From Paenibacillaceae bacterium (GTDB lineage Bacteria; Bacillota; Bacilli; Paenibacillales; CANHGK01): 64,000 nt of DNA. Shown one piece after another: positions 25,704 through 39,461 of this stretch. The stretch covers positions 33,086-97,085 of the forward strand of contig CANHGK010000010.1 in assembly GCA_947460235.1 (NCBI GenBank), written 5' to 3'. Under the pieces are notes generated by a model. It searched no databases and was not told where the DNA came from. It saw only the letters and a program-made list of their open reading frames with translations. The stretch's first letter is position 1. Every line of letters begins with the position of its first letter. The translations under genes and the position numbers were made by a program.

Positions 25704-25752
25704 GAAGCGTCTCCGATTCTCAAACAAATGAGAAGTGAGAGACGCTTTTTTT
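25704..25752. terminator. Bidirectional terminator at the end of the lipid-modification operon
   Basis: AAGCGTCTC pairs with GAGACGCTT, with an inner TTCTCA/TGAGAA pair. T-run on + and A-rich/T-run on -. It overlaps the stop of the DUF1365-CFA gene by two bases. Confidence 0.85.
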
Positions 25753-27748
25753 ATGGACATTTCGGTAGGGTTGGATTATTTGGTCGGGTCAGTTGCAATT
25801 GCAAAGTTCCAAGTTGGCGCGTGTTGAAACCGGCTTCGCAATAACATAAGTAATAACGCCACATCCGTAAGAATGTTTCGTCAAAGCCAAGTGCTTTGAC
25901 TTGATCGCTGTTTTGTTCGAAATTGCTTAGCCAGGTTCGTAAGGTGCGTCCATAATGTGTGCCAATGTTTTCAAATGTTTCGATCGTAAACTTCGAATGT
26001 TCAGTCAGCGCCGCGCTGAATGCAGTCAAAGATGGGCATAGTCCACCAGGGAAAATATATTTTTGAATCCAGTCGGATTCGCGGCGGTACTGTTCATATC
26101 GTTGATCAATGATCGTGATGACTTGCATGGCGAGTATGCCGTCTTTTTTGAGCAGACGATCGCATGCAGCGAAAAATGTGCCAAAGTACTCATGGCCGAC
26201 AGCTTCGAACATTTCGATCGAGACAATTTTATCAAATTGTCCTTGCATGTCGCGGTAGTCACAGTACACAACGTCAATGCGATCTTGTAAACCTGCAGCG
26301 GCAACACGAGCCTTTGCTTCAACCAATTGTTGTTCGGATAACGTGATCGTCGTGACGCGGCAACCGGTTTGCTCTACTGCGCGCATCGAGAAACTGCCCC
26401 AACCAGAGCCGATTTCAAGGACGTGATCTTCTTTCGTAATTTGAGCAAGTTTGATCATGCGGTCCAGTTTGTTGAATTGCGCTTCTTCAAGTGTGTCTTC
26501 CGCTTTTGCGAAAAAGGCTGAAGAATACGTCATCGTCGGATCCAAAAATTGTTGATACATTTCATTGGATAAATCATAATGAGCACGAATGTTTTTGCGA
26601 CTGTTTTCTCTGCTGTTATGGCGGATTGCATGTCCGATGGAGTTGATCCACTTAAGCAAGCCAGCACCTTTGAAATCGCGTTCATCTGCGACATCCCGAT
26701 TCTGTACAATCCATTCGAGCAATCCGGTTACATCTTGCGTATCCCATTCGCCGGCCATGTATGATTCTCCGAAACCGATATCGCTGTTGGATAAAACACG
26801 TGTAAAAAATTTCGTATTCAAGATGTTCATAATTATGGCATGTTCCGCGTGTGGATCGCCGAAAAAATGTTCTGTCCCGTCGGGGAGACGCATCATCATT
26901 GCGCCTTTTTGGAAACGACGAAAATAGCTGAAAACAAGGTTCATGGCGATTCGTAGACGCCATGAAGGCTTATTCACACGAAACGTTTGAGACGAGAGTG
27001 GTTCCGGCTTCATGTAAATTCGTAACCCCTTTTCATAATATAATCGTGCAGCTTGCCATAGGATTCGCGGCATTGTTAACAGTGCTGCAAATGGATATTT
27101 AATGATTCCTTCTACAATAGATGCAGTCGAAAGTGTCCTTGATATCCGTCCGACCCATTCAGATGTAAATGAAATTGTATCACCATGCCATAGATCAACG
27201 CCAATACGAAGCGGATTCATCGTCCAATCGCGGGGCACGCGAAAGCGATATTCACCGTCTACTGCATTAAATGGTGAAACGTGGAACTGCTTTGGTGTGC
27301 GGTACAGTATCCACTTTCCCTCGTAGGTTGGTTCGTCCAAGACGTAGATATGCCGTTCACCAAATGTATTATTCACCTCCGCAACGACGCAAAGCAACTC
27401 CTCGTTTGCGTTGCGGCATGCATAAAAACTGACGGGGTTAAAGACATAATTGAAAAGCCTTAAGCAGGTAATCAACTGAACTTTGGAAACCACATTTACA
27501 TAAGGTTTTCCACGTAACTCGCGTAGTAATTTATCCTGTATCGATCCTTCACCGCGAAGGTAATCCGCATCATGTATCGATTGTAAGTTGATGTTATTGT
27601 ACGAAAATGGACCAATTTTTTGCGGAAGAGAAGGTAGTTCGTCCAAATCGATCGAACAAAAATAAACAGGGTAACGGAACGCGTGTTTCTTTGGCGTCGT
27701 ACGCGCGTGCGCTACATGACCCATCCACAGTAACGAACGCGACATCAT
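25751..27748 (-). CDS. DUF1365 - cyclopropane fatty acid synthase-like fusion
   Basis: This 665-residue protein joins two normally separate proteins. Residues 1 to ~245 are DUF1365 (SLLWMGHVAHARTTPKKHAF, FNYVFNPVSFYACRN, VNNTFGERHIYVLD, FHVSPFNAVDGEYRFRV). Residues ~265-665 are an SAM-dependent CFA-type methyltransferase (VLEIGSGWGSFSMRA near 445, VYCDYRDM, IVSIEMFEAVG, YIFPGGLCPS). The Cys of E. coli Cfa in YSC is Ser here (TYSSAFF), and the FEH motif is FEA, so a chemistry other than plain cyclopropanation is likely. The start at 27748 follows TAGGGGGA, 8 bp after the oxidoreductase stop. It is the last gene of a three-gene operon reading left from 30.2 kb. Confidence 0.88.
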   Translation of the reverse strand: MMSRSLLWMGHVAHARTTPKKHAFRYPVYFCSIDLDELPSLPQKIGPFSYNNINLQSIHDADYLRGEGSIQDKLLRELRGKPYVNVVSKVQLITCLRLFNYVFNPVSFYACRNANEELLCVVAEVNNTFGERHIYVLDEPTYEGKWILYRTPKQFHVSPFNAVDGEYRFRVPRDWTMNPLRIGVDLWHGDTISFTSEWVGRISRTLSTASIVEGIIKYPFAALLTMPRILWQAARLYYEKGLRIYMKPEPLSSQTFRVNKPSWRLRIAMNLVFSYFRRFQKGAMMMRLPDGTEHFFGDPHAEHAIIMNILNTKFFTRVLSNSDIGFGESYMAGEWDTQDVTGLLEWIVQNRDVADERDFKGAGLLKWINSIGHAIRHNSRENSRKNIRAHYDLSNEMYQQFLDPTMTYSSAFFAKAEDTLEEAQFNKLDRMIKLAQITKEDHVLEIGSGWGSFSMRAVEQTGCRVTTITLSEQQLVEAKARVAAAGLQDRIDVVYCDYRDMQGQFDKIVSIEMFEAVGHEYFGTFFAACDRLLKKDGILAMQVITIIDQRYEQYRRESDWIQKYIFPGGLCPSLTAFSAALTEHSKFTIETFENIGTHYGRTLRTWLSNFEQNSDQVKALGFDETFLRMWRYYLCYCEAGFNTRQLGTLQLQLTRPNNPTLPKCP

Positions 27749-27756
27749 AATTCCCC

Positions 27757-29124
27757 CTAAGCGTCTGTTTTTAGCGAACGATCGAAGTATGCAGGTTGAC
27801 TTATTTCCAAGGCCGGCCAAATGACATCAAAATGAGCGTTGACCATTTGGACGCTGGACCGTACCGCATCTTCATGGAATCCATAACCAAAATAACTCCC
27901 ACAGTAGTATGTAGCTTGTCCGCCGTTTAGCGTAGGCAAATGTGTTTGGGAATTAATCGCATCAAACGAGAATACCGGATGCGTGTAATTCATCTCGCGG
28001 ATGATGTGCTCATTCTTAATCGGTTGCGTGCGATTTAGTGTAACACAATAGTTTGTTGGTGTATTTAGTCCTTGCAGCGCATTCATGTAGTATGAAACGG
28101 ATACTGGATGCTCTGGCGAAGATTTTGTTTCTTCTGTGTAATTCCAAGCTGCCCATGCCTTTTTTGATGGCGGGAGTACAGAAATATCGGTATGTAGCAC
28201 GGTGTGGTTTTTGGAATAATTCCAAGCGCCAAGCAACTTGTGCTCCATAGGTGTGGGTTGTTCTAACAATTGAAGCGCTTCGTTCGCGTGCGTTCCGAAA
28301 ACGACGCGATCAAATGATTCTTCGCGACCGTCTGAATGACAAATCGTAGCACTCCATTTGCCATGAACGTCAGCGGTGCGGCGGACGCGATCAATTTTGG
28401 CACCGGTAACAACGGTCCCTTTAAATGACTTCAGAAATGCTTTTACATATGCGTTGCTGCCGCCTTTGACTGTTTTCCATTGCAAACGGCGCTGATCTTG
28501 AACCGTCAGCAATCCGTGATTACGGAAAAAGTGAATAAACGACTGTGCGGGATAGTTTAGGATTTCGCCGGTTGGTGTGGACCAAATTGCCGCACCCATT
28601 GGCAATAAGTAAAGTGACATAAATTCCTTGGACAAACCCATCTGGCGAACATAATCACCAAGTGTAAGTCCGACTAATTTGTCAGAATCGGCATCGAGGA
28701 GCGCTTGTTTATTAAAACGCACCAAATCATTTAACATCCGCCAAAAATAGGGGCGGATCAAATTTCGACGCTGCGCGAAAAGTCCATTAAGTGAAGTGCC
28801 AGCATAGTATAACCCGCTACGCTCACTAAAATAACTAAACGACATCGTACTATTCCGATCTTCAACTTCGAGTTCCGCCAAAAATTGTTCGAAATACGGA
28901 TAGGTCCGAGAGTTAAAGACGATAAAACCAGTGTCAACAGGCAAACCGGCGTCTGGACCGTTGGGGATTAATACGGTGTTTGTATGGCCGCCTACATATT
29001 CATTTTTTTCAAAAAGCGTTACGTCATATTTGTTTTGAAGTAAGTAGGCGGAAACGATCCCTGCAACGCCTGCTCCAATAATGGCGATTCGTTCTCTTTG
29101 GATGAGCTCAGTCAGCTTGAACAC
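27757..29124 (-). CDS. FAD-dependent amine-oxidase-like oxidoreductase
   Basis: This ~455-residue flavoprotein has the dinucleotide-binding strand RIAIIGAGVAGIVSAYLLQ, then GGHTNTV, VDTGFIVFN and the C-terminal FAD motif CGSYFGYGFHEDAV. This is the NAD(P)-binding/amine-oxidase-like type regularly next to DUF1365 and CFA genes in many bacteria, and a relative lies in the Rhodobacter RpoE-ChrR singlet-oxygen regulon. Expected role: desaturation or oxidation of membrane acyl chains. GTG 29124 is the listed start, but its ribosome site is nearly adjacent, so initiation a few codons later is possible. It overlaps the upstream CFA gene by 17 bp. Confidence 0.85.
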   Translation of the reverse strand: MFKLTELIQRERIAIIGAGVAGIVSAYLLQNKYDVTLFEKNEYVGGHTNTVLIPNGPDAGLPVDTGFIVFNSRTYPYFEQFLAELEVEDRNSTMSFSYFSERSGLYYAGTSLNGLFAQRRNLIRPYFWRMLNDLVRFNKQALLDADSDKLVGLTLGDYVRQMGLSKEFMSLYLLPMGAAIWSTPTGEILNYPAQSFIHFFRNHGLLTVQDQRRLQWKTVKGGSNAYVKAFLKSFKGTVVTGAKIDRVRRTADVHGKWSATICHSDGREESFDRVVFGTHANEALQLLEQPTPMEHKLLGAWNYSKNHTVLHTDISVLPPSKKAWAAWNYTEETKSSPEHPVSVSYYMNALQGLNTPTNYCVTLNRTQPIKNEHIIREMNYTHPVFSFDAINSQTHLPTLNGGQATYYCGSYFGYGFHEDAVRSSVQMVNAHFDVIWPALEISQPAYFDRSLKTDA

Positions 29125-30178
29125 CTCGTTTCACAAATCGGTAATGCGTGACAAACCATTCTTCTCCGCCACGGAAACCGAATAACTCCGCACAAGCCAT
29201 GAAAAATACACGCCAGTATACCGTCCATTTGGTTATTTGATGTTCGCCATAAGCGGTTTTGAAAATGTCATTGATCTCATCTTTTTCGCGGTCCATGCGC
29301 TGTAACCATGCTTCACACGTTTTTTGATAGTGCACACCGTTTACATGCCATAGTCTTTCGATGGATACTTCATCAGCGAAGTGTAATAGTAATTCCCGAC
29401 TCGGCATTTGACCTCCTGAGAAGAAATATCTCGCCATCCAATCGGTTCCATCATTGTCTTCAAAGAAATACGGAGTATTTAGATGCGTGAAAATATGCAC
29501 GAATAACTTACCACCGTCAACTAATAAATTGGATACCTTGTGCATCAGTTGCTCGTAATTACGCATGTGCTCAAACATTTCTACGCTCACAATTCGATCG
29601 AATCGTGCCACAGTTTGGAAATCATTCATATCTGCGGTGACAACCTTCAAATTGCCTAGTCCACGTTCGAGTGCTTGCCCATCAATATATTCTTTTTGCG
29701 TTGCAGAATTAGAGACGGAAACAATCAGGCTGTTCGGGTAATGCGCGGCCATCCATAAGGATAACGAACCCCATCCACAACCGAGTTCTAGAACCGTTTG
29801 TCCATCGGAAAGATCCGCACGTTCACACGTTAATTGGAGCATCGCGGTTTCAGCTTCATGCAATTTATCTGCCCATTGAGACGCAGGAATAGTGGCCAAT
29901 TCATTTTCCCATAGTGCACAGCTATATTTCAAATGCTTACCAAGTACGCGCAAATAAAATTCGGTGGGCACTTCGTAATGTTGTTCGTTCGCTTTATCCG
30001 TTTCTACGGCGATTGGAGATGCCTTGAGTGAATCAATATAATTTTGTAAATACTGAGGGTCGCTAATGGTTGCACGCTGGCTCTCTTTTTGGCGCTGGCG
30101 CAAAAGTTGTTGAATTCCGACCCGAATGAACGAATCAGGCACTATATTTTTTTCAAGTAAATTGTCGATCCACATCAT
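29108..30178 (-). CDS. Second CFA-family SAM methyltransferase
   Basis: This 356-residue cytoplasmic enzyme starts at ATG 30178 after GAGGAGAG. It contains HYEVPTEFYLRVLGKHLKYS (CFA fold entry), the SAM site VLELGCGWGSLSLWMA near residue 131, and IVSVEMFEHMRNYE with the FEH motif. Cys is kept in KYSCALWE, unlike the fused paralogue. It is the first gene of the operon with the amine-oxidase-like flavoprotein and the DUF1365-CFA fusion. A likely reaction is methylation of a double bond of membrane unsaturated acyl chains, by family. Its promoter region carries the three CarH-type repeats at 30199-30231. Confidence 0.88.
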   Translation of the reverse strand: MMWIDNLLEKNIVPDSFIRVGIQQLLRQRQKESQRATISDPQYLQNYIDSLKASPIAVETDKANEQHYEVPTEFYLRVLGKHLKYSCALWENELATIPASQWADKLHEAETAMLQLTCERADLSDGQTVLELGCGWGSLSLWMAAHYPNSLIVSVSNSATQKEYIDGQALERGLGNLKVVTADMNDFQTVARFDRIVSVEMFEHMRNYEQLMHKVSNLLVDGGKLFVHIFTHLNTPYFFEDNDGTDWMARYFFSGGQMPSRELLLHFADEVSIERLWHVNGVHYQKTCEAWLQRMDREKDEINDIFKTAYGEHQITKWTVYWRVFFMACAELFGFRGGEEWFVTHYRFVKRGVQAD

Positions 30179-30198
30179 TAATCTCTCCTCATTAAAAC

Positions 30199-30231
30199 AT
30201 ATACATAACCTATACAAAGTATATACCACAA
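30199..30231. promoter_or_regulatory. CarH/LitR-type operator: three tandem 11-bp repeats
   Basis: Three adjacent 11-bp units on +: ATATACATAAC (30199), CTATACAAAGT (30210) and ATATACCACAA (30221). The first two fit nTnTACAnnnn exactly, the third has one mismatch. CarH and CarA bind this kind of direct repeat. The site lies between the divergent CFA operon (start 30178) and the DUF1295 gene (start 30301), 21 bp before the CFA start codon, so it overlaps the probable CFA promoter. Confidence 0.8.
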
Positions 30232-30300
30232 TGCTAGAATTGAATACAGATACAACGTGACGTTTTTTAAAATAAAAATTTGGAGCAGTAGGTGGAAAAC

Positions 30301-31071
30301 ATGCAGACTTGGTTTTGGACATTGGTTGTTTTGGTTGGGTATATGACCTTGTTTTATTTATTTGCACTGCGATTACGGAACAATAGTATTGTTGATATCG
30401 GTTGGGGGCCTGGTTTTATACTTGTAGGTATATTTCAGTTCATGATGGTGGATGGGAACGTGTCAATCCGAACGATTGTGTATACTTGTCTTGTACTTGT
30501 TTGGGCAGCACGTCTTAGTTGGCATATCGGCCTTCGTAATCATGGAAAAAGTGAAGATTTCCGCTACGCAGCAATGCGCGCTGGATGGGGCAATGCGTGG
30601 TGGTGGAAAGGTTTCACAAATGTGTTTCTTTTGCAGGCCGCGGTGTTATGGGTTGTTTCGATTCCAATTGTTATTCTGTGGCAGACGCCAGATGCAAGTT
30701 GGGATTGGATTGGTATTCTTGGGGTTGTTATTTGGGGTGTAGGGATGTTTTTTGAAGTCGTTGGAGATGCGCAATTGGCAGCTTTTAAACGCGATCCGGC
30801 AAATAAGGGCCATGTGATAATGAATGGGTTATGGAAATTTACGCGTCATCCGAATTATTTTGGTGAGGCATTGTTATGGTGGGGCTTTGCGGCGGGGCAG
30901 CTAGGACTTACGTATGGGTGGATTGGGCTTGTGAGTCCATTGATTTTGAATCTATTATTGTTGTATGTTTCAGGTGTGCCAATGCTCGAAAAAAAATACG
31001 AGCATCACCCGGAGTTTCAGGCGTATGCTCGTGTGACATCGCGGTTAATTCCTTGGTTTCCAAAGAAGTGA
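30301..31071 (+). CDS. DUF1295 polytopic membrane enzyme
   Basis: This 256-residue integral membrane protein has about six or seven helices. The family motifs are [13 protein letters not shown] near the N-terminus and, at the C-terminus, [53 protein letters not shown] and [12 protein letters not shown]1295 resembles steroid 5-alpha reductases and isoprenylcysteine methyltransferases, so reduction or methylation of a lipid is plausible. The start is ATG 30301 (TAGGTGG upstream); GTG 30292 is an alternative. It is divergent from the CFA operon across the CarH-type operator and ends 2 bp from the convergent DUF1475-like gene. Confidence 0.85.
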
Positions 31072-31073
31072 GT

Positions 31074-31400
31074 TCAGGCCCGGCGACCCATAAAGAATGA
31101 TTTCCAGTCGCCGTTTGCTGAACGTGCTGCTAAGAACACGTAAAGTGATGTGGTCCAATTGCCAAGGCCGAGCACAAGAACGATCCAAAGGAGTGCGCGC
31201 CACCACGATTTTTCGCGGAAACCGACCCAAATGCAGATGTACGTTGCACCGACGTAAAAGTCTAGAAGTGTCAAATTGCCCCATAACAGAGATGTGATTT
31301 TACCGCCATCTCCCCAAAAATCGCCGACGGTAAGACCATAGGTCAGTCCTGCGGTCATGACCAAAAATAAAATTGCGGCTACTACTTGTAAAAGCTTCAT
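31074..31400 (-). CDS. Small membrane protein, DUF1475-like
   Basis: This 108-residue protein has three or four membrane helices. The start is set at 31400, where TTGGAGTG precedes MKLLQVVAAILFLVM. The block LLDFYVGATYICIWVGFREK, then SWWRALLWIVLVLGLGNWTT, resembles DUF1475, a family of short membrane proteins of unknown function also known from plants. It is convergent with DUF1295 and divergent from the ABC transporter. No CarH-type repeat is seen in front of it. Confidence 0.6.
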   Translation of the reverse strand: MKLLQVVAAILFLVMTAGLTYGLTVGDFWGDGGKITSLLWGNLTLLDFYVGATYICIWVGFREKSWWRALLWIVLVLGLGNWTTSLYVFLAARSANGDWKSFFMGRRA

Positions 31401-31446
31401 CTTCAACACTCCAATTCAAATTTGATTGAGAAAGCAGGGATCATGT

Positions 31447-32424
31447 ATGGCTAAAGGGACAATCGAAGTCATGGACCTCGAGAAAACATTTAAGGGAGGC
31501 GTGCAGGCCGTTCGCGGCGTTTCCTTTGAAGTCGGACAAGGCGAATTTTTTGCATTCCTCGGACCGAACGGCGCGGGAAAATCCACAACGATCCAAATCT
31601 TGACGACGCTGATGGTGCCCACGAAAGGTCATGCACGTGTGGCAGGTTACGATGTAAATACCGAACCGGATAAGATTCGCCTTGAAATCGGTGTCGCGTT
31701 GCAAGAAACAGGTGTCGATCCGAAATTGACGGGCCGAGAAATGTTGATTATGCAAGCGCGATTATTCGGCATGACGAGCAAACAGGCAAAAGAACGTGCG
31801 GCCGAATTGCTCGGAAAAATTAATTTGCTTGACGCAGCCGATCGCCAAGTTGGTAAATATTCTGGCGGGATGCGGCGCCGATTGGATCTTGCGATCTCTC
31901 TCGTGCACAAACCGACAATTTTGTTTTTGGATGAGCCGACGACTGGGCTTGATCCCGTGAATCGATTTGCAATTTGGGATGAAATTCGCGACTTGAATCG
32001 CCAAAACGGCACGACAATTTTTCTCACCACACAATACTTAGAAGAGGCTGACCAGCTTGCTGAGCGTATTAGCATTATCGACAAAGGCAAGATCGTTGTT
32101 ACTGGAACATCCGCAGCACTCAAACGACAAATTGGACTTGACGTAATTGAACTTACATTCGCCAATGTAATTGATGCAACGACAGCCGTTAACGCTCTAC
32201 AAGGGATCGGAAAAGACGTGCAAAGACAGGATACCCATTTGAAACTGTACGCAGAAAATGGCGCATTGCTGTTGGCGGATGTTGTTCGCGCGATTGACGC
32301 GGCGCATGTTCACCCGACGCAATTAAACGTTGCACCGCCGTCATTGGACGATGTATTCATTCAATTTACGACGAATTCAGCCCAGCCGCAAGCATCTTCA
32401 GTAACAAAGGAGGTTATCGTATGA
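31447..32424 (+). CDS. DrrA-type ABC transporter ATPase
   Basis: This 325-residue ATPase has Walker A GPNGAGKST, Q-loop ALQETGVDPKLTGREML, signature YSGGMRRRLDLA, Walker B ILFLDEPTTGLDP and the C-terminal extension of the daunorubicin-resistance (DrrA) branch, ending PSLDDVFIQFT. The start at 31447 gives the standard N-terminus. ATPases of this branch pair with ABC-2 permeases to export drugs or lipids. Its stop overlaps the permease start (ATGA). Being inside the lipid-modification island suggests lipid or hydrophobic cargo, but that is position only. Confidence 0.9.
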   Translation: MAKGTIEVMDLEKTFKGGVQAVRGVSFEVGQGEFFAFLGPNGAGKSTTIQILTTLMVPTKGHARVAGYDVNTEPDKIRLEIGVALQETGVDPKLTGREMLIMQARLFGMTSKQAKERAAELLGKINLLDAADRQVGKYSGGMRRRLDLAISLVHKPTILFLDEPTTGLDPVNRFAIWDEIRDLNRQNGTTIFLTTQYLEEADQLAERISIIDKGKIVVTGTSAALKRQIGLDVIELTFANVIDATTAVNALQGIGKDVQRQDTHLKLYAENGALLLADVVRAIDAAHVHPTQLNVAPPSLDDVFIQFTTNSAQPQASSVTKEVIV

Positions 32425-33197
32425 ACAAGTTTTTGAGAGATACAGGCATTCATATGCGCCGTAATATTTTGCTTACCTTAAGAAGTCCAGCTACGGTTTT
32501 GCCAAACATGATTATTAGTTTGTTTTTCTTGTTTGTTTATCAAGGTGGATTAAGTGGAATCGCAAACATGCCAGCTTTTGGAGGAGCAAGTTATCTTGCA
32601 TTTATTTTACCGGTTTCCGTTGTAAGTGCGGCGATCGGCGGATCTGGCGGCGCAGGCCAAGCGCTCGTGCGTGATTTGGAAAATGGTTATTTTGCTAGGT
32701 TGTTGCTTACGCCGTCTTCACGACTTGCGATCGTACTCGGACCGATGATCGCTGGGATGTTACAGTTAATCATTCAGACGTTTTTGATTTTGTGTGTTGG
32801 CTTCTTCTTGGGATTAAATATTAAAGCTGGATTTGCTGGTTTTCTTGTTGTGATGGGCTTAGCTGCCGGATTTGGACTTGGTTTTGCCGGATATTCGGTT
32901 GGTGTGGCATTGCGAGCAAAAAATGCACAAGCTGCTCAAGCGGGTACTTTTGTGTTTTTCCCGTTGATATTCTTAAGTAGTACATTCGTGCCACTTGAAA
33001 TGATTCAAGCGGGCTGGCTCAAAGTTGTCGCGAAAATTAATCCGACGACGTATATCTTCGAAGGAATGCGTCAAGTGTTAATAAAAGGTTGGGAAACGGG
33101 ACCGATTCTTCAAGCGTTTGGTGCGATTGGATTACTTTGCGTGATTACAATTACGTTCGCAGCGTTAAGTGCAAAACAAGCGGTCAGTCGCGATTAG
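32421..33197 (+). CDS. ABC-2 type permease (DrrB-like)
   Basis: This 258-residue permease has six predicted transmembrane helices. Family features are the N-terminal RNILLTLRSPATVLPNMIIS and the DLENGYFARLLLTPSSR amphipathic stretch, followed by FVFFPLIFLSSTFVPLEMIQ near the fourth-fifth helices and NPTTYIFEGMRQ. It works with the ATPase encoded just upstream (4-bp overlap). Its stop overlaps tail to tail by 4 bp with the SDR gene on the other strand. Confidence 0.9.
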   Translation: MNKFLRDTGIHMRRNILLTLRSPATVLPNMIISLFFLFVYQGGLSGIANMPAFGGASYLAFILPVSVVSAAIGGSGGAGQALVRDLENGYFARLLLTPSSRLAIVLGPMIAGMLQLIIQTFLILCVGFFLGLNIKAGFAGFLVVMGLAAGFGLGFAGYSVGVALRAKNAQAAQAGTFVFFPLIFLSSTFVPLEMIQAGWLKVVAKINPTTYIFEGMRQVLIKGWETGPILQAFGAIGLLCVITITFAALSAKQAVSRD

Positions 33198-34636
33198 CGC
33201 GACGTAACCGCCTGTTGTTCGGAAATGAGTGTATCCAAGTATTTCAAATGTTTTCCGAATTGTTTCATTACCCACAAATGCAAAAGCGCTTGGGTCGCAT
33301 TATAAATGTACCAAGGCAATGTAGGCGAAAAATCATGAATCGCAACGAGTACGCATTTATCATTCAACACTTGCCTGAATTCTAAACGACCGCGATGGTG
33401 CGGGTGTGGTTTCACGAGTAGGCCGCCATCGATATAAAACAACGAGCGATCTTTTGTACTTCGTTCGTGTGAATAACTTAATACGAGAAGCGGTTTTTTG
33501 ATCCCCCATCCGTAGAAGTCACAATTTCCATCGTGATCAACATTTACACGAATTAATGAATGGAAAAATTCAGGTAACCATTGTGCGTAAAATTTACCGA
33601 CCCAGCGGGCATCTTTGCTAGCTGGAAGTGTTAGTCGCTGTACGGAGCGGACGTCTTTATCTACTAGAGGCGGCCGCTTTTTGTATTGTTTTTCGGGTTC
33701 ATCTTTTTCGAGTATGACCGCTTTGCGGACGGATTCAATAAATGGGATGCCTGGCTGACCAATTTTTTCTTGCAAGTTACGTGTCGTTGCGATCATTGGG
33801 TGCCGCAAACTTTCCACGAGCGGAGAAATAAGCGCTAATGGTAAGCCCGTGATTAATCGAATCCACAATCGAGATAATCGCGGAGAAAGAATAGGTACCG
33901 GGAAAAATCGGCGTTTCACGCCGAGCGCCTCTGCAGTTTTGGAAAGCATGTCTTTGTAACTCATGATGTCTGGTCCGCCAATCTCGAAAACATGCCGGAA
34001 CGTTTCTTTTCGATCTAGGCAATATTTCAAAAGGTTGATCACATCTTCAAGATCGATTGGGTGTGTCATCGTAGCAGTCCATCGCGGTAAAAGCATCGCG
34101 GGCAAACGCTGAACCAATCGAATTAACATATCGAATGAAGAACCGCCTGCCCCAACGATCAACCCCGCCCGAAGTGCCGTGACTGGTACGTGATGTGCAG
34201 CGAGTGTTTGTTCAACTTCCCAGCGGCTTTGGAGATGTTCTGACAAGTCGGGTGAATTTGGAGGAAGTAATCCGGTTAAATAAATAATTTGTCGAACACC
34301 GGCTTTTTCGGCGGCGCGCGAAAAATTATCGGCAAGAATTAAATCCATATCGACAAAATTACCCTGTGTTAATTTGGCGGAAGGAATCATGGAGTGAACA
34401 AGGTAATATGCGATTTCTACACCGGTTAATGCTTGTTCTACTTCTAGTAACGAAAACAAATCACATTTTCGTTTGGTGACTTTTCCGACTGCGGGTAGTT
34501 GATCCTCCGCGTGCGTCTTCTCGTCCATCGAACGTCCAAGTGCAACAACCGGATAATTCGCAGATAATGCTTGAATCAACGCTTTTCCGACAAAACCATT
34601 CGCTCCGGCAATTGCGACCACTGGTGTTTTTACCAT
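33194..34636 (-). CDS. SDR (NDUFA9-like) fused to DUF2867
   Basis: This 480-residue protein starts at 34636 (AAGGAGTGGG upstream). Residues 1 to ~300 form an atypical SDR with VVAIAGANGFVGKALIQALS and LVHSMIPSA, RQIIYLTGLLPP and TALRAGLIVGAGGSSFDML, like the complex-I-NDUFA9 type. Residues ~330-480 are a DUF2867 domain (WYIYNATQALLHLWVMKQFG near the end). Such proteins often sit beside CrtI- and lyase-like genes under photo-oxidative control, but their substrate is unknown. It is in an operon with the upstream small membrane gene (22 bp gap), downstream of the second CarH-type operator. Confidence 0.85.
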   Translation of the reverse strand: MVKTPVVAIAGANGFVGKALIQALSANYPVVALGRSMDEKTHAEDQLPAVGKVTKRKCDLFSLLEVEQALTGVEIAYYLVHSMIPSAKLTQGNFVDMDLILADNFSRAAEKAGVRQIIYLTGLLPPNSPDLSEHLQSRWEVEQTLAAHHVPVTALRAGLIVGAGGSSFDMLIRLVQRLPAMLLPRWTATMTHPIDLEDVINLLKYCLDRKETFRHVFEIGGPDIMSYKDMLSKTAEALGVKRRFFPVPILSPRLSRLWIRLITGLPLALISPLVESLRHPMIATTRNLQEKIGQPGIPFIESVRKAVILEKDEPEKQYKKRPPLVDKDVRSVQRLTLPASKDARWVGKFYAQWLPEFFHSLIRVNVDHDGNCDFYGWGIKKPLLVLSYSHERSTKDRSLFYIDGGLLVKPHPHHRGRLEFRQVLNDKCVLVAIHDFSPTLPWYIYNATQALLHLWVMKQFGKHLKYLDTLISEQQAVTSR

Positions 34637-34658
34637 TGGAACCCACTCCTTAAAATGC

Positions 34659-35093
34659 CTATTGCTCTTCTTTTGGAGCACTTAACCACCAACCGACAAT
34701 AACACCATACCCAGCGTGTGCAAACAACCACCAGCCCCAAGCTGCAGAATCGTTCATGAGAGGCGTCGGAGCTTGATCAGATAAAATGGTAGTCGGAAAT
34801 AATAACGCCCCGATCACAATCATAATCACTCCAAAACGTAACGCGTGTGAACGTCGAGTAGGCCCGAGTAATCCATTTCGATTTGCATAATCAGCTGCCA
34901 CACAAACGGCAACCGATACAACTAAATGCAGCCCGAATTCCATCCATGCAGGGATGGCTAAGCCCTTAAATCCAGGCAAATAGTCCACATTGACGAGTAA
35001 ACGATAAACGGTTACCCCTGTAAAATGTTCGATAAACCACAAAAATAGACCCATGATTGAACCACATAAAACGCCAATACTAATTGCTTTCAT
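34659..35093 (-). CDS. Four-helix membrane protein of unknown function
   Basis: This 144-residue integral membrane protein has hydrophobic segments near residues 5-25, 50-70, 84-104 and 118-138. A tail PKEEQ stays outside the last helix. I do not recognise a named family; the WMEFGLHLVVSVAVCVAADY and WWLFAHAGYGVIVGWWL segments may help a search. It is the promoter-proximal gene of the operon that continues into the SDR-DUF2867 gene, and the tandem repeats at 35130-35162 lie 37 bp in front of it, so it probably belongs to the same regulon. Confidence 0.65.
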   Translation of the reverse strand: MKAISIGVLCGSIMGLFLWFIEHFTGVTVYRLLVNVDYLPGFKGLAIPAWMEFGLHLVVSVAVCVAADYANRNGLLGPTRRSHALRFGVIMIVIGALLFPTTILSDQAPTPLMNDSAAWGWWLFAHAGYGVIVGWWLSAPKEEQ

Positions 35094-35129
35094 AACACAG
35101 GCCCCCCGGCTGTACTTTCATTTATAAAA

Positions 35130-35162
35130 AGCCTATACTGATATTGTATAAGAAATGTATAC
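35130..35162. promoter_or_regulatory. CarH/LitR-type operator between divergent genes
   Basis: Read on the minus strand, adjacent 11-bp units are GTATACATTTC (35162-35152) and TTATACAATAT (35151-35141), both exact nTnTACAnnnn, then a weak third CAGTATAGGCT (35140-35130). On + the segment also contains the inverted pair TATAC-N7-GTATA. It lies between the membrane/SDR operon (start 35093) and the CrtI-like gene (start 35201), so one site could control both. Confidence 0.8.
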
Positions 35163-35200
35163 ATTTTGCACACTTTTTTTCGATGGAAAGAGGGAGTTAA

Positions 35201-36703
35201 ATGTTCGTGTATGACGTGGTCGTTGTTGGTGGCGGGTTTGGTGGATTGGCTGCTGCCGCGAGGCTTGCGCATGCTGGTCGTTCCGTTCTTTTGCTTGAAG
35301 GAAGTGGCGAATGGGGCGGATGCGCCGGGAAATTCGATCGAGGTGGGTACCGGTTTGCAGCAGGAGCAACTGTGGGAATGGGTTTTGAAGATGATGGTGT
35401 TTTTGCGCGATTGTTTGATGAAATCGAGGAACCCCTTCCGCAGATGCGTTCATTATCGACCATTATGAATGTATATATGCCTGATCGAACCATTTCGTAT
35501 TATCAGGATTCTGAAGCATGGATCGAAGAGATTGTTCGAAAGTTTCCGGCCGAGGCAGATTGCGGGATCCGATTTTTCCGTGAAGTATGGGCAGCGAAGC
35601 CGTTAATCAATCAAGTGACTCGAGCGGAAGTAATCATACCACCGAAAACCGTTACAGATTGGTTTCGCATTATGAAATTGGCCACGAACGGTGCTTGGAA
35701 ATTTACAAATTTACTTACAGCGACCGTTGCGGATCGTATGCGCGCGGCAGGGATCAAACCAGGTTCTGCGCTGGAAGCATTTATTAATGGACAATTGATG
35801 GATAGCGTGCAAACGACGGCAACATGTTGTCCTGCGCTGCTTGGATATATTGCTTTGAATGTATTTCATCTCGGGGCGTTCTATGTTGATGGCGGATTGG
35901 CTGAAATCGGATTCGCGTTGGAGCGTTCAATTCGTAAAAATGGTGGAGAAACCTTGCTTCGCAAGCAAGTGACATCCATTCAGAAACAAGGAGAAACGTG
36001 GGCAGTCTGCACAAGACGGGATGAATGGTTCTGCGCGAAACAGCTCGTGTTTAATGGTTCTGTTCATAGTTTGGCGGAACAGTTTGCGGATACTGAATCG
36101 GTTTTGTTTAACAAGATGATGCCAATAAAAGCTTCGGAAGAAAAACATGTTCCTTCGTGGGGTGCATTTACAGTCTATGCGGCTGGCGACGATCCTTTCG
36201 TTGAGGACGATGGTGTATGCTTTCATCAATTTATTGTTGATCCTACCAAGCCTTTTGCGGAAGGAAATCAATTCTTATGTTCTTTTTCATCCAAAGATGA
36301 TTTGCTCCGTGCACCATCTGGCAAGCGGACAATGACCGTTTCAACGCATACGGATTGGAAACAATGGTGGGATCATCCCGATGCGTCTTCGTATGAAACA
36401 ATGAAAGATGAATATGGCAGTAGAATATTGCAGGTATTACAGGGGCAATGGACGGGTGTGTCAAATATGTCCGAGCATAGAATGTATGGGACGCCGATCA
36501 CGTTTGAACATTATACAAAACGTGCACAAGGGCGTGTGGGTGGATACATTCCTACCAGCTGGAGGTCAATATTTGAAGGTTTTTCACCAAAGAGTAATGC
36601 TGAAGGATTCTGGCTATGCGGAGATACGGTGTTTCCAGGGGCTGGGACGCTTGGGGTTGTGATGTCTGGTATGACGGTATCTTCGAGAATTTTAAATAAA
36701 TAA
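35201..36703 (+). CDS. CrtI-like FAD-dependent desaturase/oxidoreductase
   Basis: This 500-residue flavoprotein has the N-terminal FAD fold VYDVVVVGGGFGGLAAAARL, then GGCAGKFDRGGYRFAAGAT, and the C-terminal FAD motif GFWLCGDTVFPGAGTLGVVM. This is the phytoene-desaturase/retinol-saturase superfamily. No phytoene synthase or other crt gene is nearby, so a carotenoid substrate is doubtful; related flavoproteins act on acyl lipids. AGAGGGAG precedes ATG 35201. The promoter region holds the second CarH-type operator. The gene ends 12 bp before the folE operator begins. Confidence 0.87.
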   Translation: MFVYDVVVVGGGFGGLAAAARLAHAGRSVLLLEGSGEWGGCAGKFDRGGYRFAAGATVGMGFEDDGVFARLFDEIEEPLPQMRSLSTIMNVYMPDRTISYYQDSEAWIEEIVRKFPAEADCGIRFFREVWAAKPLINQVTRAEVIIPPKTVTDWFRIMKLATNGAWKFTNLLTATVADRMRAAGIKPGSALEAFINGQLMDSVQTTATCCPALLGYIALNVFHLGAFYVDGGLAEIGFALERSIRKNGGETLLRKQVTSIQKQGETWAVCTRRDEWFCAKQLVFNGSVHSLAEQFADTESVLFNKMMPIKASEEKHVPSWGAFTVYAAGDDPFVEDDGVCFHQFIVDPTKPFAEGNQFLCSFSSKDDLLRAPSGKRTMTVSTHTDWKQWWDHPDASSYETMKDEYGSRILQVLQGQWTGVSNMSEHRMYGTPITFEHYTKRAQGRVGGYIPTSWRSIFEGFSPKSNAEGFWLCGDTVFPGAGTLGVVMSGMTVSSRILNK

Positions 36704-36713
36704 CTCCACAAAC

Positions 36714-36746
36714 TTGTAGATATTTTGTACAGTTAATGTATAATTA
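36714..36746 (+). promoter_or_regulatory. CarH/LitR-type operator-promoter of folE
   Basis: Three units in exact 11-bp register: TTGTAGATATT (36714), TTGTACAGTTA (36725, perfect nTnTACA) and ATGTATAATTA (36736). The first and third each differ at one position. The same DNA gives a promoter TTGTAG, 19 bp, TATAAT (36737-36742). The 19-bp spacer is the long type often seen at MerR-controlled promoters. An ATG at 36736 is promoter DNA, not the folE start. Confidence 0.75.
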
Positions 36747-36804
36747 TAAAGCAACTAGGAAAGTCGATTTGAAGATGGCGTTTCGCCAAAGTGGAGGGAT
36801 GATC

Positions 36805-37410
36805 ATGAGCGTTTCAAGTTTTAGAAGTATACAAATGCAAGACAAAACGGCAGATCCGTTGGAGGCCTTGTTTTTGGAGGTAATTACACATATTGGTGAA
36901 GATCCAAGGCGAGAAGGACTGCTAGAGACGCCGCGTCGAATTGCAAAAATGTACCGAGAAATCTTTAGCGGAATTCATGAAGATCCTATGGCTGTCTTGC
37001 AAAAAACGTTTCCAAGTGAAGGGACGAAAGATATTATTATCGTTCAAGATATCCCTTTCTATTCCGTGTGCGAGCACCATTTTGTTCCGTTTTATGGGAA
37101 GGCACATATTGGATACATTCCACAAGATCGTATTGTTGGATTAAGTAAATTCGCTCGATTGGTTGAAACGTTCGCTCGTCGTCCGCAAGTACAAGAGAAG
37201 TTAACAAACCAATTGGCAAACACGATTTTTGAAGCGATCAACCCTCGTGGAGTCATCGTTGTCGTGGAAGCGGAACATATGTGTATGAGCATGCGAGGAA
37301 TCAAAAAACCGGGATCTCTGACGAGAACATTGTGTCGTTTGGGCGAATTTGAGCATGAAATCGAAACTGAAAAACGCTTTTTCAAATTGTTGAAAGACTC
37401 TTTGACGTAA
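36805..37410 (+). CDS. folE: GTP cyclohydrolase I
   Basis: This 201-residue enzyme converts GTP to 7,8-dihydroneopterin triphosphate, the first step to tetrahydrofolate and other pterins. Zinc ligands Cys89 and His92 (SVCEHHFVPF) and Cys160 (EHMCMSMRG) are intact, as are GYIPQDRIVGLSKFAR and the family N-terminus LLETPRRIAKMY. The start at 36805 follows GGAGGG by 6 bp. It has no folate-gene neighbours and sits between the CrtI-like gene and the MerR-B12 genes with its own CarH-type repeats. I infer light-dependent supply of pterin or folate, for example the antenna cofactor of photolyases. Confidence 0.96.
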   Translation: MSVSSFRSIQMQDKTADPLEALFLEVITHIGEDPRREGLLETPRRIAKMYREIFSGIHEDPMAVLQKTFPSEGTKDIIIVQDIPFYSVCEHHFVPFYGKAHIGYIPQDRIVGLSKFARLVETFARRPQVQEKLTNQLANTIFEAINPRGVIVVVEAEHMCMSMRGIKKPGSLTRTLCRLGEFEHEIETEKRFFKLLKDSLT

Positions 37411-37461
37411 TCGTAATGATACGTAATGGAATAAACATAGGTATGGAAACCAACTCATGTA

Positions 37462-37490
37462 TTGTAGTTTGTATAATTTTCTTATACAAT
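37462..37490 (+). promoter_or_regulatory. Autoregulatory promoter with CarH-type palindrome
   Basis: TTGTAG (37462-37467), 17 bp, TACAAT (37485-37490) form a promoter. Inside it TTGTATAA-N5-TTATACAA (37469-37489) is a perfect 8-bp inverted repeat whose right arm contains a perfect nTnTACA unit on + and whose left arm gives one on -. This fits repression of the regulator's own promoter. Confidence 0.75.
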
Positions 37491-37519
37491 AAGCCTATAT
37501 GTTGCGAAACGGTTGTAAA

Positions 37520-37545
37520 AGTTTAAGGAGGTGATTCCCATTTAT
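37520..37545 (+). promoter_or_regulatory. Extended Shine-Dalgarno before a probable ATT start codon
   Basis: AAGGAGGTGATTCC (37525-37538) matches the 16S rRNA 3' end over almost its whole length. Eight bases after AGGAGG comes ATT (37540) followed by TAT AAT ATC. The paralogous gene begins GTG TAC AAT ATT at the equivalent codon. The in-frame GTG at 37531 overlaps the Shine-Dalgarno itself and cannot use it. Confidence 0.6.
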
Positions 37546-38427
37546 AATATCAAATTAGTTGAGCAACGAGTGGGGATTCCTTCTGTAACGATTCGCGCAT
37601 GGGAAACACGATATGGTGTGATCAAACCTGCTCGGACGGAATCTGGTCATCGGCTCTACTCCGAACAGGATATAGAGGATATTTTGTGGTTGAAAGATCA
37701 AACGGAAGATAAAGGGATGTCCATAAGTCAAGCTGCAAAATTGTTAATACATCGTAAAGAGCGTAGAGACAATATACAGTTCGGAGTTGTTGTTCATCAA
37801 CAGACGTATGATGAAATTAGCGATCGACTATATGATGCACTTTGTAATTTTCAATCGGAACAAGCCAACAAAGTTTTGGATTTTGGTCTTTCGATGTTTC
37901 AACATGAAGAATTGTTCACAAATGTATTAACGCTAGTGATGCAACGGGTTGGCGAAGAATGGAAAATGGGCAAGCGTACAATTGCCCAAGAACATTTCGT
38001 TACGCAATTCGTAATGCAACGGTTGTCGCAATTTTTTAGAATTTTTCCGATCGATCCAAGTTTGCCGAAAGCCATTTCAATGTGCCCAAGTGGAGAATAT
38101 CAACAAGTAGGGTTAATGCTGTTTTCCTTGTTTTTGCGCAAAAAAGGACTAGAAGTTTTCTACTTGGGTGTAGATATGCCAATCGATCAAGTTGAGGAGA
38201 TGATTTCCTCTCACAAAGTTAGGTTGATTTGTATCTCTTCAAACTCACCACAGTCCGCAAATCAAGTGTTTAATAGTGTTAGGGATTTGCATCAAAGAAT
38301 TCCAAAGTTAAAATTTGTTTTGATTGGAAATGGATTTTCTGAATGTCCAGCAGATTTGGAATGTTGGAAAATCAGCGAAGTTCTTGATGATTGGCGGATT
38401 TGGTATCGTCGTGAGGTGCATGTCTAA
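37540..38427 (+). CDS. MerR-family regulator with B12-binding-like domain, axial His missing (CarH/LitR paralogue 1)
   Basis: This 295-residue regulator (counting from ATT 37540) has a MerR helix-turn-helix at residues 1-70 (VGIPSVTIRAWETRYGVIKP) and a four-helix bundle with the light-sensor motif W-x9-EH (Trp141, Glu151, His152). It ends in a Rossmann-like cobalamin-binding domain. In CarH the cobalamin motif is E/D-x-H-x-x-G with the His binding cobalt; here it is EYQQVG (Glu186, Gln188, Gly191), so the axial His is Gln. It may bind adenosylcobalamin weakly, or act B12-independently like Myxococcus CarA. It lies 107 bp upstream of the intact paralogue and should share its operators. Confidence 0.88.
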   Translation: MYNIKLVEQRVGIPSVTIRAWETRYGVIKPARTESGHRLYSEQDIEDILWLKDQTEDKGMSISQAAKLLIHRKERRDNIQFGVVVHQQTYDEISDRLYDALCNFQSEQANKVLDFGLSMFQHEELFTNVLTLVMQRVGEEWKMGKRTIAQEHFVTQFVMQRLSQFFRIFPIDPSLPKAISMCPSGEYQQVGLMLFSLFLRKKGLEVFYLGVDMPIDQVEEMISSHKVRLICISSNSPQSANQVFNSVRDLHQRIPKLKFVLIGNGFSECPADLECWKISEVLDDWRIWYRREVHV

Positions 38428-38534
38428 TGCGCAAACAAGCTATTGAGTGTTCGCGTTTTATTTCAAGCTACAATTTTGAAATTTCTTCCACTAGTTGCGA
38501 ACAAAATGATTTCGTTCAGATTGGGGTGAACTAG

Positions 38535-39461
38535 GTGTACAATATTAGATCGGTATCACAATTAGTTGGAATTCCTGCAGTGACAATTCGTGCCTGGGAA
38601 ATGAGATACGGTGTTATTGTACCTGATCGTTCCAAGGGGGGACATCGGTTATATTCACAACAAAATATTGAGGATTTGTTGTGGCTCAAAAAACAGCTTG
38701 ATGTACATGGGAGGTCCATCAGTCAAGCTGCACAAAGTTTAAAACGCCAAAAGAATAGCAAGCCGATTGAGCAAACCCAAGACACAAACTTGCCCCAAAC
38801 AGAGGAGTTTACACTTAGGGAAGAGTTGAATCGACAATTATATGAGTTAGATGCGGAGAAGACACATTCGATACTAGATCGTGCTTTTCATACATTCAGT
38901 TTGCAATTTGTCATGCATCGCTTAATCGCACCATTTATGGTTGAAGTTGGTGACTTGTGGGAAGCGGGAAAAGTAAGCATTGCGCAGGAACATTTTATGT
39001 CGGCGATCATTACTCAACGCATCTCACATTATTTCCGTATGTTCGCACACAATTCATTGTATCCGAAAACGGTAGTGCTTTGTCCGGCAGGGGAACATCA
39101 TCAAATTGGTGCGTTAATGTTTAGTATGTTTCTACGCAGGCACGGAATTGATGTTGTTTTTTTAGGTGCGAACACGCCAGTTGGTGGTCTTGACTCTTTA
39201 ATTACAGATTCGGGCGTAGAGCGGGTAGTCGTATCGGTAGGAATGGAAGAAGCGATACAATCTGCGAATGAATTAATTAGAAAGATACATCCTTTAAATG
39301 AAAAACTTCGATTTTTTGTTGGAGGCAGAAATTCTAATGATCCGAAGATTGATTCAAGATATATAAAAGTTGGTCATTATGATGCGGATTGGGAAGAGGT
39401 AATTTCTCGATATTGGCAGGTTTCGAAGATTCGTGGACAAGTAAACGATTATATAGGTTGA
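38535..39461 (+). CDS. B12-dependent photoreceptor repressor of the CarH/LitR class (paralogue 2)
   Basis: This 308-residue regulator starts at GTG 38535 (GGGGTG 7 bp upstream). It has a MerR DNA-binding domain (VGIPAVTIRAWEMRYGVIVP), a Gln/Thr linker, the W-x9-EH motif (Trp142, Glu152, His153) and an intact cobalamin motif E-x-H-x-x-G in GEHHQIG (Glu187, His189, Gly192). In CarH, adenosylcobalamin makes a dark tetramer that blocks the promoter and light breaks the Co-C bond. The sequence here has every marker of that switch. It follows paralogue 1 without a promoter of its own that I can see, and a strong terminator follows, so the pair is probably one transcript. Confidence 0.92.
   Translation: MYNIRSVSQLVGIPAVTIRAWEMRYGVIVPDRSKGGHRLYSQQNIEDLLWLKKQLDVHGRSISQAAQSLKRQKNSKPIEQTQDTNLPQTEEFTLREELNRQLYELDAEKTHSILDRAFHTFSLQFVMHRLIAPFMVEVGDLWEAGKVSIAQEHFMSAIITQRISHYFRMFAHNSLYPKTVVLCPAGEHHQIGALMFSMFLRRHGIDVVFLGANTPVGGLDSLITDSGVERVVVSVGMEEAIQSANELIRKIHPLNEKLRFFVGGRNSNDPKIDSRYIKVGHYDADWEEVISRYWQVSKIRGQVNDYIG

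Follow-up and report, generated by a model that had tools for sequence, protein, structure and literature searches.

Gene content of the locus

We analysed a 64,000-nucleotide stretch of a Paenibacillaceae genome (the window; G000:C10:33086-97085), in which a block of predicted lipid-acting genes lies beside two adjacent genes for MerR-B12 regulators, here called Reg1 and Reg2. The genome comprises 2,722,827 bases in 42 contigs and is 99.2% complete, and the closest genomes with which it was compared belong to the same order only. An earlier note on this DNA had proposed that the block is a light- and B12-controlled regulon for membrane-lipid remodelling.

Pfam models identified two proteins with MerR, B12-binding_2 and B12-binding domains, two CMAS-family proteins, two amine-oxidase-type proteins with flavin adenine dinucleotide (FAD) domains, a DUF1295 protein, an NAD-binding protein resembling short-chain dehydrogenases/reductases (SDR) and folE. 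The target genes listed in the earlier note were recovered in this way, except that Pfam did not report DUF2867 in the SDR-like protein at E<=0.001, and a fusion of DUF1365 and CMAS domains in the frame at 25751-27820 had been missed. This fusion gene, which joins a UfaO-like to a UfaM/Cfa-like domain (25751-27748, reverse strand; open frame from 27820, likely ATG at 27748; DUF1365 E 2.4e-68, CMAS E 2e-86), is followed on the same strand by genes for a UfaD-like FAD oxidoreductase (27757-29124; Amino_oxidase) and a second CMAS-family methyltransferase (29108-30178; CMAS E 2.2e-43; open frame from 30367, likely start at 30178). The DUF1295 membrane protein is encoded on the forward strand (30292-31071; E 2.2e-66). 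The SDR-like protein (33194-34681; NAD_binding_10/Epimerase) and a small membrane protein of 144 amino acids without a Pfam family (34659-35093) are both encoded on the reverse strand. On the forward strand follow a FAD oxidoreductase resembling CrtD and carotenoid isomerase (35201-36703; NCBIfam desat_CrtD 244.8 bits, below the cut-off of 549.7), folE (36800-37410; GTP_cyclohydroI E 2.6e-72; open frame from 36736, likely ATG at 36800), Reg1 (37531-38427) and Reg2 (38535-39461).

The small membrane protein is very rare, a word search of 5.8 billion proteins having returned a single further relative. The CrtD-like oxidoreductase has relatives that are common across Bacillaceae. Its own genome yielded no phytoene synthase: a search for phytoene/squalene synthase (PF00494), positive in 7 of 14 named genomes, gave no match in this one; carotenoid control is therefore unlikely and was set aside as an output. 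Since the genome holds another folE copy at C8:16085, and since folE is reported to be light-induced in Pseudomonas (PMC9758184), the folE gene in the window may be a stress copy.

Reg2, not Reg1, keeps the B12-ligating histidine

In the cited account, CarH homologues are marked by Wx9EH together with ExHx2Gx41SxV/Tx22-27GG (PMC8156234), and His177 of CarH is described as the lower cobalt ligand (PMC10442372). Reg1 and Reg2 are 38% identical. Reg2, the predicted photoreceptor-repressor, keeps Wx9EH, ExHxxG and GG, with SxG as the third element instead of SxV/T. Reg1 also keeps Wx9EH, but its B12 site is degenerate (ExQ, SxN and GN), with EYQQVG at the ExHxxG position. We aligned 24 rows (22 of them different) from the window and its relatives: Wx9EH was present in all 24 and the full ExHx2G...GG motif in 20, and the B12-ligating histidine was missing in Reg1 alone, which has glutamine there. 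By the published motif rule Reg1 is not a CarH-type photoreceptor, because this histidine and two further motif elements are gone. The earlier note had ascribed CarH/LitR hallmarks to both regulators, but of the two only Reg2 has both hallmark motifs.

Reg2 matched CarH structures at E 2.4e-29. In a regulator tree, long branches leave the placement of Reg1 and Reg2 unsure. Elsewhere in the genome B12-binding_2 was found only in a frame of 1166 amino acids, MetH-like by size. One PduO-type adenosyltransferase gene (PF01923) is present and could supply adenosyl-B12.

Tandem 11-bp repeats in the promoter regions

CarH operators are described as tandem 11-bp nnnnTnnACAn repeats (PMC9304148). Such repeats, with TnnACA units in exact 11-bp register, occur in three promoter regions of the block. 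Operator A (TATACA-N5-TATACA-N5-TATACC; 30200-30227, forward strand) separates the ufa-like operon from the divergent DUF1295 gene, operator B (TGTGCA-N5-TATACA-N5-TATACA; 35145-35172, reverse strand) separates the genes for the small membrane protein and the FAD oxidoreductase, and operator C (TATACA-N5-TGTACA-N5-TCTACA; 36715-36742, reverse strand) lies upstream of folE. The third units of A (TATACC, 30222-30227) and B (TGTGCA, 35167-35172) are imperfect, and C has three perfect TnnACA units. Upstream of Reg1 lies the weakest site, D, an inverted repeat (TTGTATAA-N5-TTATACAA; 37469-37489, forward strand) that is exact; with up to 2 mismatches allowed, 2 matches were found versus 0.05 expected. 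Under the tandem rule D offers one unit only and does not qualify as a CarH-type tandem operator. Of the four promoter regions to which the earlier note had assigned the half-site, three therefore carry it in exact register, but the fourth is a palindrome only.

In the 64 kb, mismatch-free TNTACA-N5-TNTACA occurred only at 30200-30216, 35145-35161, 36715-36731 and 36726-36742. With one mismatch allowed there were 10 matches versus 3.99 expected, a count reached by 1 of 100 shuffles. The repeat at 36726-36742 in operator C overlaps a TATAAT. This promoter overlap comes solely from a consensus promoter scan that was uninformative (19 matches versus 17.0 expected).

Related sites elsewhere in the genome

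We then scanned the genome (2.72 Mb) with the reversed pattern as control. TNTACA-N5-TNTACA gave 17 matches versus 5 in the control, TNNACA-N5-TATACA 15 versus 2, and the three-unit pattern 4 versus 0, operator A being one of the four. Four of the 17 lie in promoters A, B and C; these are not independent evidence, because the patterns were written after the window sites had been seen, and without them the count is 13 versus 5. The density outside the window is about 0.31 per 64 kb, versus 4 matches within it, and the motif is accordingly not as frequent elsewhere in the genome; an equal frequency was the outcome that the earlier note had named as refuting its proposal.

Three of the 13 outside matches fall in coding frames (L008, L017, L018), four are intergenic and of the TTTACA type, and six are intergenic and of the TATACA type (on C3, C4 at 117717, C7, C12, C35 and C40). 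At C35:4148 (L177:4148-7306), TATACA-N5-TATACA precedes a DPRP gene and then a photolyase gene, which overlap end to start. The site at C40:5746 (L178:3238-5762) precedes genes for a UbiB/ABC1 kinase, an 86-amino-acid frame and a glutathione peroxidase, and that at C7:21655 (L179:7656-11503) precedes genes for a resistance-nodulation-division (RND) pump and a TetR protein, with a TetR-like palindrome close by. At C3:182197 (L001:1501-1527), three units in register precede a LuxR-type regulator. The motif finds plausible targets plus some implausible ones, and the notion that every genome-wide site belongs to the regulon was rejected in view of the coding-frame, TTTACA-type and hisS (C12) matches. 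The regulon of lipid remodelling put forward in the earlier note is thus partly supported: a CarH/LitR-type regulon is the best reading, and its predicted targets go beyond lipids, with sites also before photolyase, peroxidase and pump genes.

The same repeats precede most of the regulators examined in relatives

We examined 20 MerR-B12 genes in 18 genomes, taken from the 35 matches to Reg2 among relatives at E<1e-25 and chosen before their upstream DNA was seen. A gene counted as positive when two or more TnnACA units, spaced in 11-bp register, fell within a stretch of four unit lengths in the 300 bp upstream. Seventeen of the 20 had such units. The same score was reached by 74 of 2000 mononucleotide shuffles and, in pieces drawn at random from these loci, by 140 of 3000. 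The 17 of 20 do not come from 20 independent events, because the rows are akin to one another. In at least six rows of score 2, one imperfect unit stood between the two exact ones. The misses were L060, where three units lie upstream of folE instead, L061 (score 0) and L064 (score 1).

Two of these loci resemble the window genome in gene content. In G018 (L060), three perfect units are followed by folE, the regulator and a glutathione peroxidase that shares 53% identity with that of the UbiB operon on C40 of the window genome. In G002 (L058), the regulator is separated by three units from a divergent gene pair, which encodes a 37% identical relative of the small membrane protein (L058:8580-8957) and a photolyase, and the RND pump after the regulator is 56% identical to the pump behind the C7 site. 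Such sites also precede crtI-like genes in L056, L061 and L068.

The lipid operon and furan fatty acids

DUF1365 corresponds to the domain of UfaO, reported to catalyse the final, O2-dependent step by which bacteria make furan fatty acids, and the order ufaD-ufaO-ufaM is reported in R. palustris (PMC7380195). In Rhodopseudomonas pseudopalustris (L131), relatives are ordered FAD oxidoreductase, DUF1365 and CMAS, and the FAD gene product is 35% identical to that of 27757-29124. CMAS, UfaD-like FAD and DUF1365 genes stand together in the window as well, and a fusion of UfaO-UfaM type beside a UfaD-like gene suggests furan fatty acids. The lipid part of the earlier note can thus be made more specific. 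CFA1, CFA2, DUF1365, DUF1295 and GPX5 are listed among the singlet-oxygen-induced, SAK1-dependent genes of Chlamydomonas (PMC4067076).

From a profile scan with the fusion we took the best 80 loci listed. These held a UfaD-like gene in 74 cases, a photolyase in 24, a second CMAS in 19, a LitR-like protein in 18 and DUF1295 in 17. The fusion as such is not new, as the top-ranked relatives hold both domains; it was a single fused frame in 5 of the best 80 loci, and DUF1365 was a separate frame in 69 of 81 (the best 80 plus L156). In searches of the order and the class that scored at most three candidates per genome, a full-length fusion was found among 392 genomes of the order only in the window genome and G200. 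Six of the 392 passed at E 1e-30, four of them by the CMAS half only, and at E 1e-80 none but the window genome did so among 398 genomes of the class.

Weighing the interpretations

Taken together, these data are best read as a CarH/LitR-type regulon, a reading that is well supported by comparison. Reg2 would be a CarH-type dark repressor acting on the 11-bp repeats, and light would free lipid, folate, photolyase and peroxidase genes; on sequence grounds, we put the probability of this at about 0.68.

Several observations weigh against it. At the level of the regulator, SxG in Reg2 departs from the SxV/T of the published motif, and NCBIfam NF052513 TransRegCarH scores 142.5 bits for Reg2 and 133.2 bits for Reg1 against a cut-off of 400. 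Reg2 is therefore labelled CarH-like, not CarH. Only two units are perfect in each of operators A and B, and only one in D. Three sites in the genome lack a plausible target: a three-unit-like site at C12:73736 (L016:1501-1517) between a presumed HemZ-like gene and hisS, the C4:117717 site before an MMPL protein, and a three-unit palindromic match at C5:124626 (L002:1501-1527) beside a MazE-like/MazF-like pair. The relatives' regulators are not independent, 7 of 20 being near-identical in layout, and the DPRP genes of G002 and G018 lack such a unit pair upstream, so that conservation of the DPRP site was rejected. The photolyases of G002 and the window genome share only 30% identity over 202 residues and therefore belong to the same superfamily without being shown to be orthologues. 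In G200 (L162:8973-13293), the genes for the second CMAS, the UfaD-like protein and the fusion form one group with neither a regulator nor sites close to it, and with this other full-length case in the order we rejected the view that the lipid operon is kept with its regulator. Finally, no FA_desaturase (PF00487) match was found in the genome, in which other routes to unsaturated chains were not searched, and the unsaturated substrate for UfaM-type chemistry is therefore unexplained.

The repeats might instead belong to another regulator that binds 11-bp direct repeats, above all PhoP, or be chance features of AT-rich promoter DNA. Pho boxes of PhoP have the form TT(A/T/C)ACA-N5. Three of the four intergenic TTTACA-N5-TTTACA matches lie at PhoB/PstS-like genes (L009, L010 and L019, each at 1501-1517; these labels, like HemZ and hisS above, were assigned by us on the sequence and do not rest on family searches); they are likely Pho boxes and as such confuse scans for CarH repeats. 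Several units also coincide with TATAAT-like -10 boxes, as at 36726-36742. The window units, however, are TATACA, TGTACA or TCTACA, and none starts with TT; the reversed patterns used as controls match three to seven times less often; and like units stand upstream of the MerR-B12 genes of relatives. We regard this explanation as unlikely. It is also unlikely, in our judgement, that the regulon is real but not light-controlled, with the pair sensing the supply of adenosyl-B12 or a redox or lipid signal and Reg1 as the main repressor. This would fit the position of the B12-degenerate Reg1 nearest to the operator-folE promoter and the reported class II LitR, which is B12-independent and receives light from a separate light-oxygen-voltage (LOV) protein (PMC9758184). 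Against it stand the photolyase operon with the same kind of site, and Reg2 itself, which keeps Wx9EH and ExHxxG, motifs that have been tied to adenosyl-B12 photosensing (PMC8156234).

A further alternative concerns the product of the lipid operon, which could be cyclopropane or methyl-branched fatty acids only, with no furan and another role for DUF1365. The CMAS models cannot separate UfaM from Cfa, and the missing FA_desaturase match would favour this alternative too, except that cyclopropane synthesis needs an unsaturated chain as well. UfaD-like, DUF1365 and CMAS genes stand together in most of the best 80 loci (UfaD-like in 74), and the gene order is that of the furan-fatty-acid-making Rhodopseudomonas (PMC7380195; L131), both of which argue for furan synthesis. 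We therefore consider the cyclopropane alternative possible but doubtful.

Proposed mechanism

For the CarH-like regulon, we envisage that in the dark Reg2 loaded with adenosyl-B12 would be bound at operators A, B and C, where it would prevent transcription, and that light would break its Co-C bond and cause it to leave the DNA. Operator A would then free the second methyltransferase, UfaD-like and UfaO-UfaM-type fusion genes, with DUF1295 on the opposite side; B the genes for the small membrane protein and the SDR-like protein, with the CrtD-like oxidoreductase on the opposite side; and C folE and possibly the regulators themselves. Their products would alter membrane acyl chains and supply pterin, those of the distant targets would repair DNA and lipid peroxides, and the fatty acids made, methyl-branched or with a furan ring, would serve to quench reactive oxygen. 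Reg1 may recognise similar sites independently of B12 and serve there as a B12-blind partner or a competitor; alternatively, it may mix with Reg2. The bacterium would thus likely answer light by membrane remodelling and DNA repair instead of pigment.

A fuller version can be put forward only tentatively, at somewhat short of even odds for its parts taken jointly. Here a B12 photoreceptor would have been rewired, in a cell without carotenoids, from pigment to a full photo-oxidative defence that includes furan fatty acids made by the fused UfaO-UfaM and UfaD, pterin supply, photolyase and lipid-peroxide repair. The tandem pair would read the light, the partner without a B12 ligand setting a B12-blind baseline. 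If true, this system would place the singlet-oxygen gene set of Rhodobacter under a CarH switch. A CarH-like switch on a furan-type lipid operon would show that one photoprotection gene set can answer to three or more unrelated sensors, and it would offer a clean test of the role of furan fatty acids in a cell without carotenoid quenching.

Comparison with known systems

In the cited literature, B12 photoreceptors govern carotenoids, and the control of furan fatty acids is linked to singlet oxygen or to LOV proteins; among the matches listed in open-licence PubMed Central, none described cyclopropane or furan genes as controlled by a LitR/CarH of the adenosyl-B12 type. CarH and class I LitR of Thermus thermophilus, Bacillus megaterium and Myxococcus xanthus share with the present system the MerR helix-turn-helix, B12-binding_2 and B12-binding domains, the Wx9EH and ExHxxG motifs (in Reg2) and the tandem 11-bp nnnnTnnACAn operators. 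They differ in the third motif element, reported as SxV/T versus SxG in Reg2, and in their carotenoid targets, whereas the sites found here lie in front of genes for lipids, folate and repair.

The class II LitR systems of Pseudomonas putida and P. mendocina (PplR, PmlR) share ufaM, folE, photolyase, FAD oxidoreductase and short-chain dehydrogenase genes, a set reported as light-inducible, and their T(G/A)TACA half-sites are alike (PMC9758184). Their sites are given as TGTACA-N12-TGTACA, in contrast to the 11-bp direct repeats found here, and their regulator is described as having no working B12 domain and receiving light via a LOV protein, whereas the present regulator is of the B12 type.

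RpoE-ChrR of Rhodobacter sphaeroides is a sigma/anti-sigma switch for singlet oxygen, in contrast to the photoreceptor repressor predicted here. Its folE2 belongs to another enzyme family than folE. The reported RpoE-ChrR set comprises phrA, cfaS, RSP_1087-1091 and folE2, and R. capsulatus has a glutathione peroxidase-cryB operon (PMC7074977). The likeness seen in the earlier note holds at the family level, for phrA, ufaM/cfaS, ufaD, ufaO, an SDR gene and folE2 (PMC7074977, PMC7380195).

The CarA-CarH pair of Myxococcus xanthus likewise consists of two adjacent MerR-B12 paralogues, one of them without a working B12 motif set. CarA is reported to keep the ExHxxG-type motif and to lack Wx9EH (PMC8156234), and Reg1 is its mirror image, with Wx9EH kept and ExHxxG missing. 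A paralogue that has lost its cobalt ligand in this way is a natural experiment on the origin of B12-blind MerR-B12 proteins.

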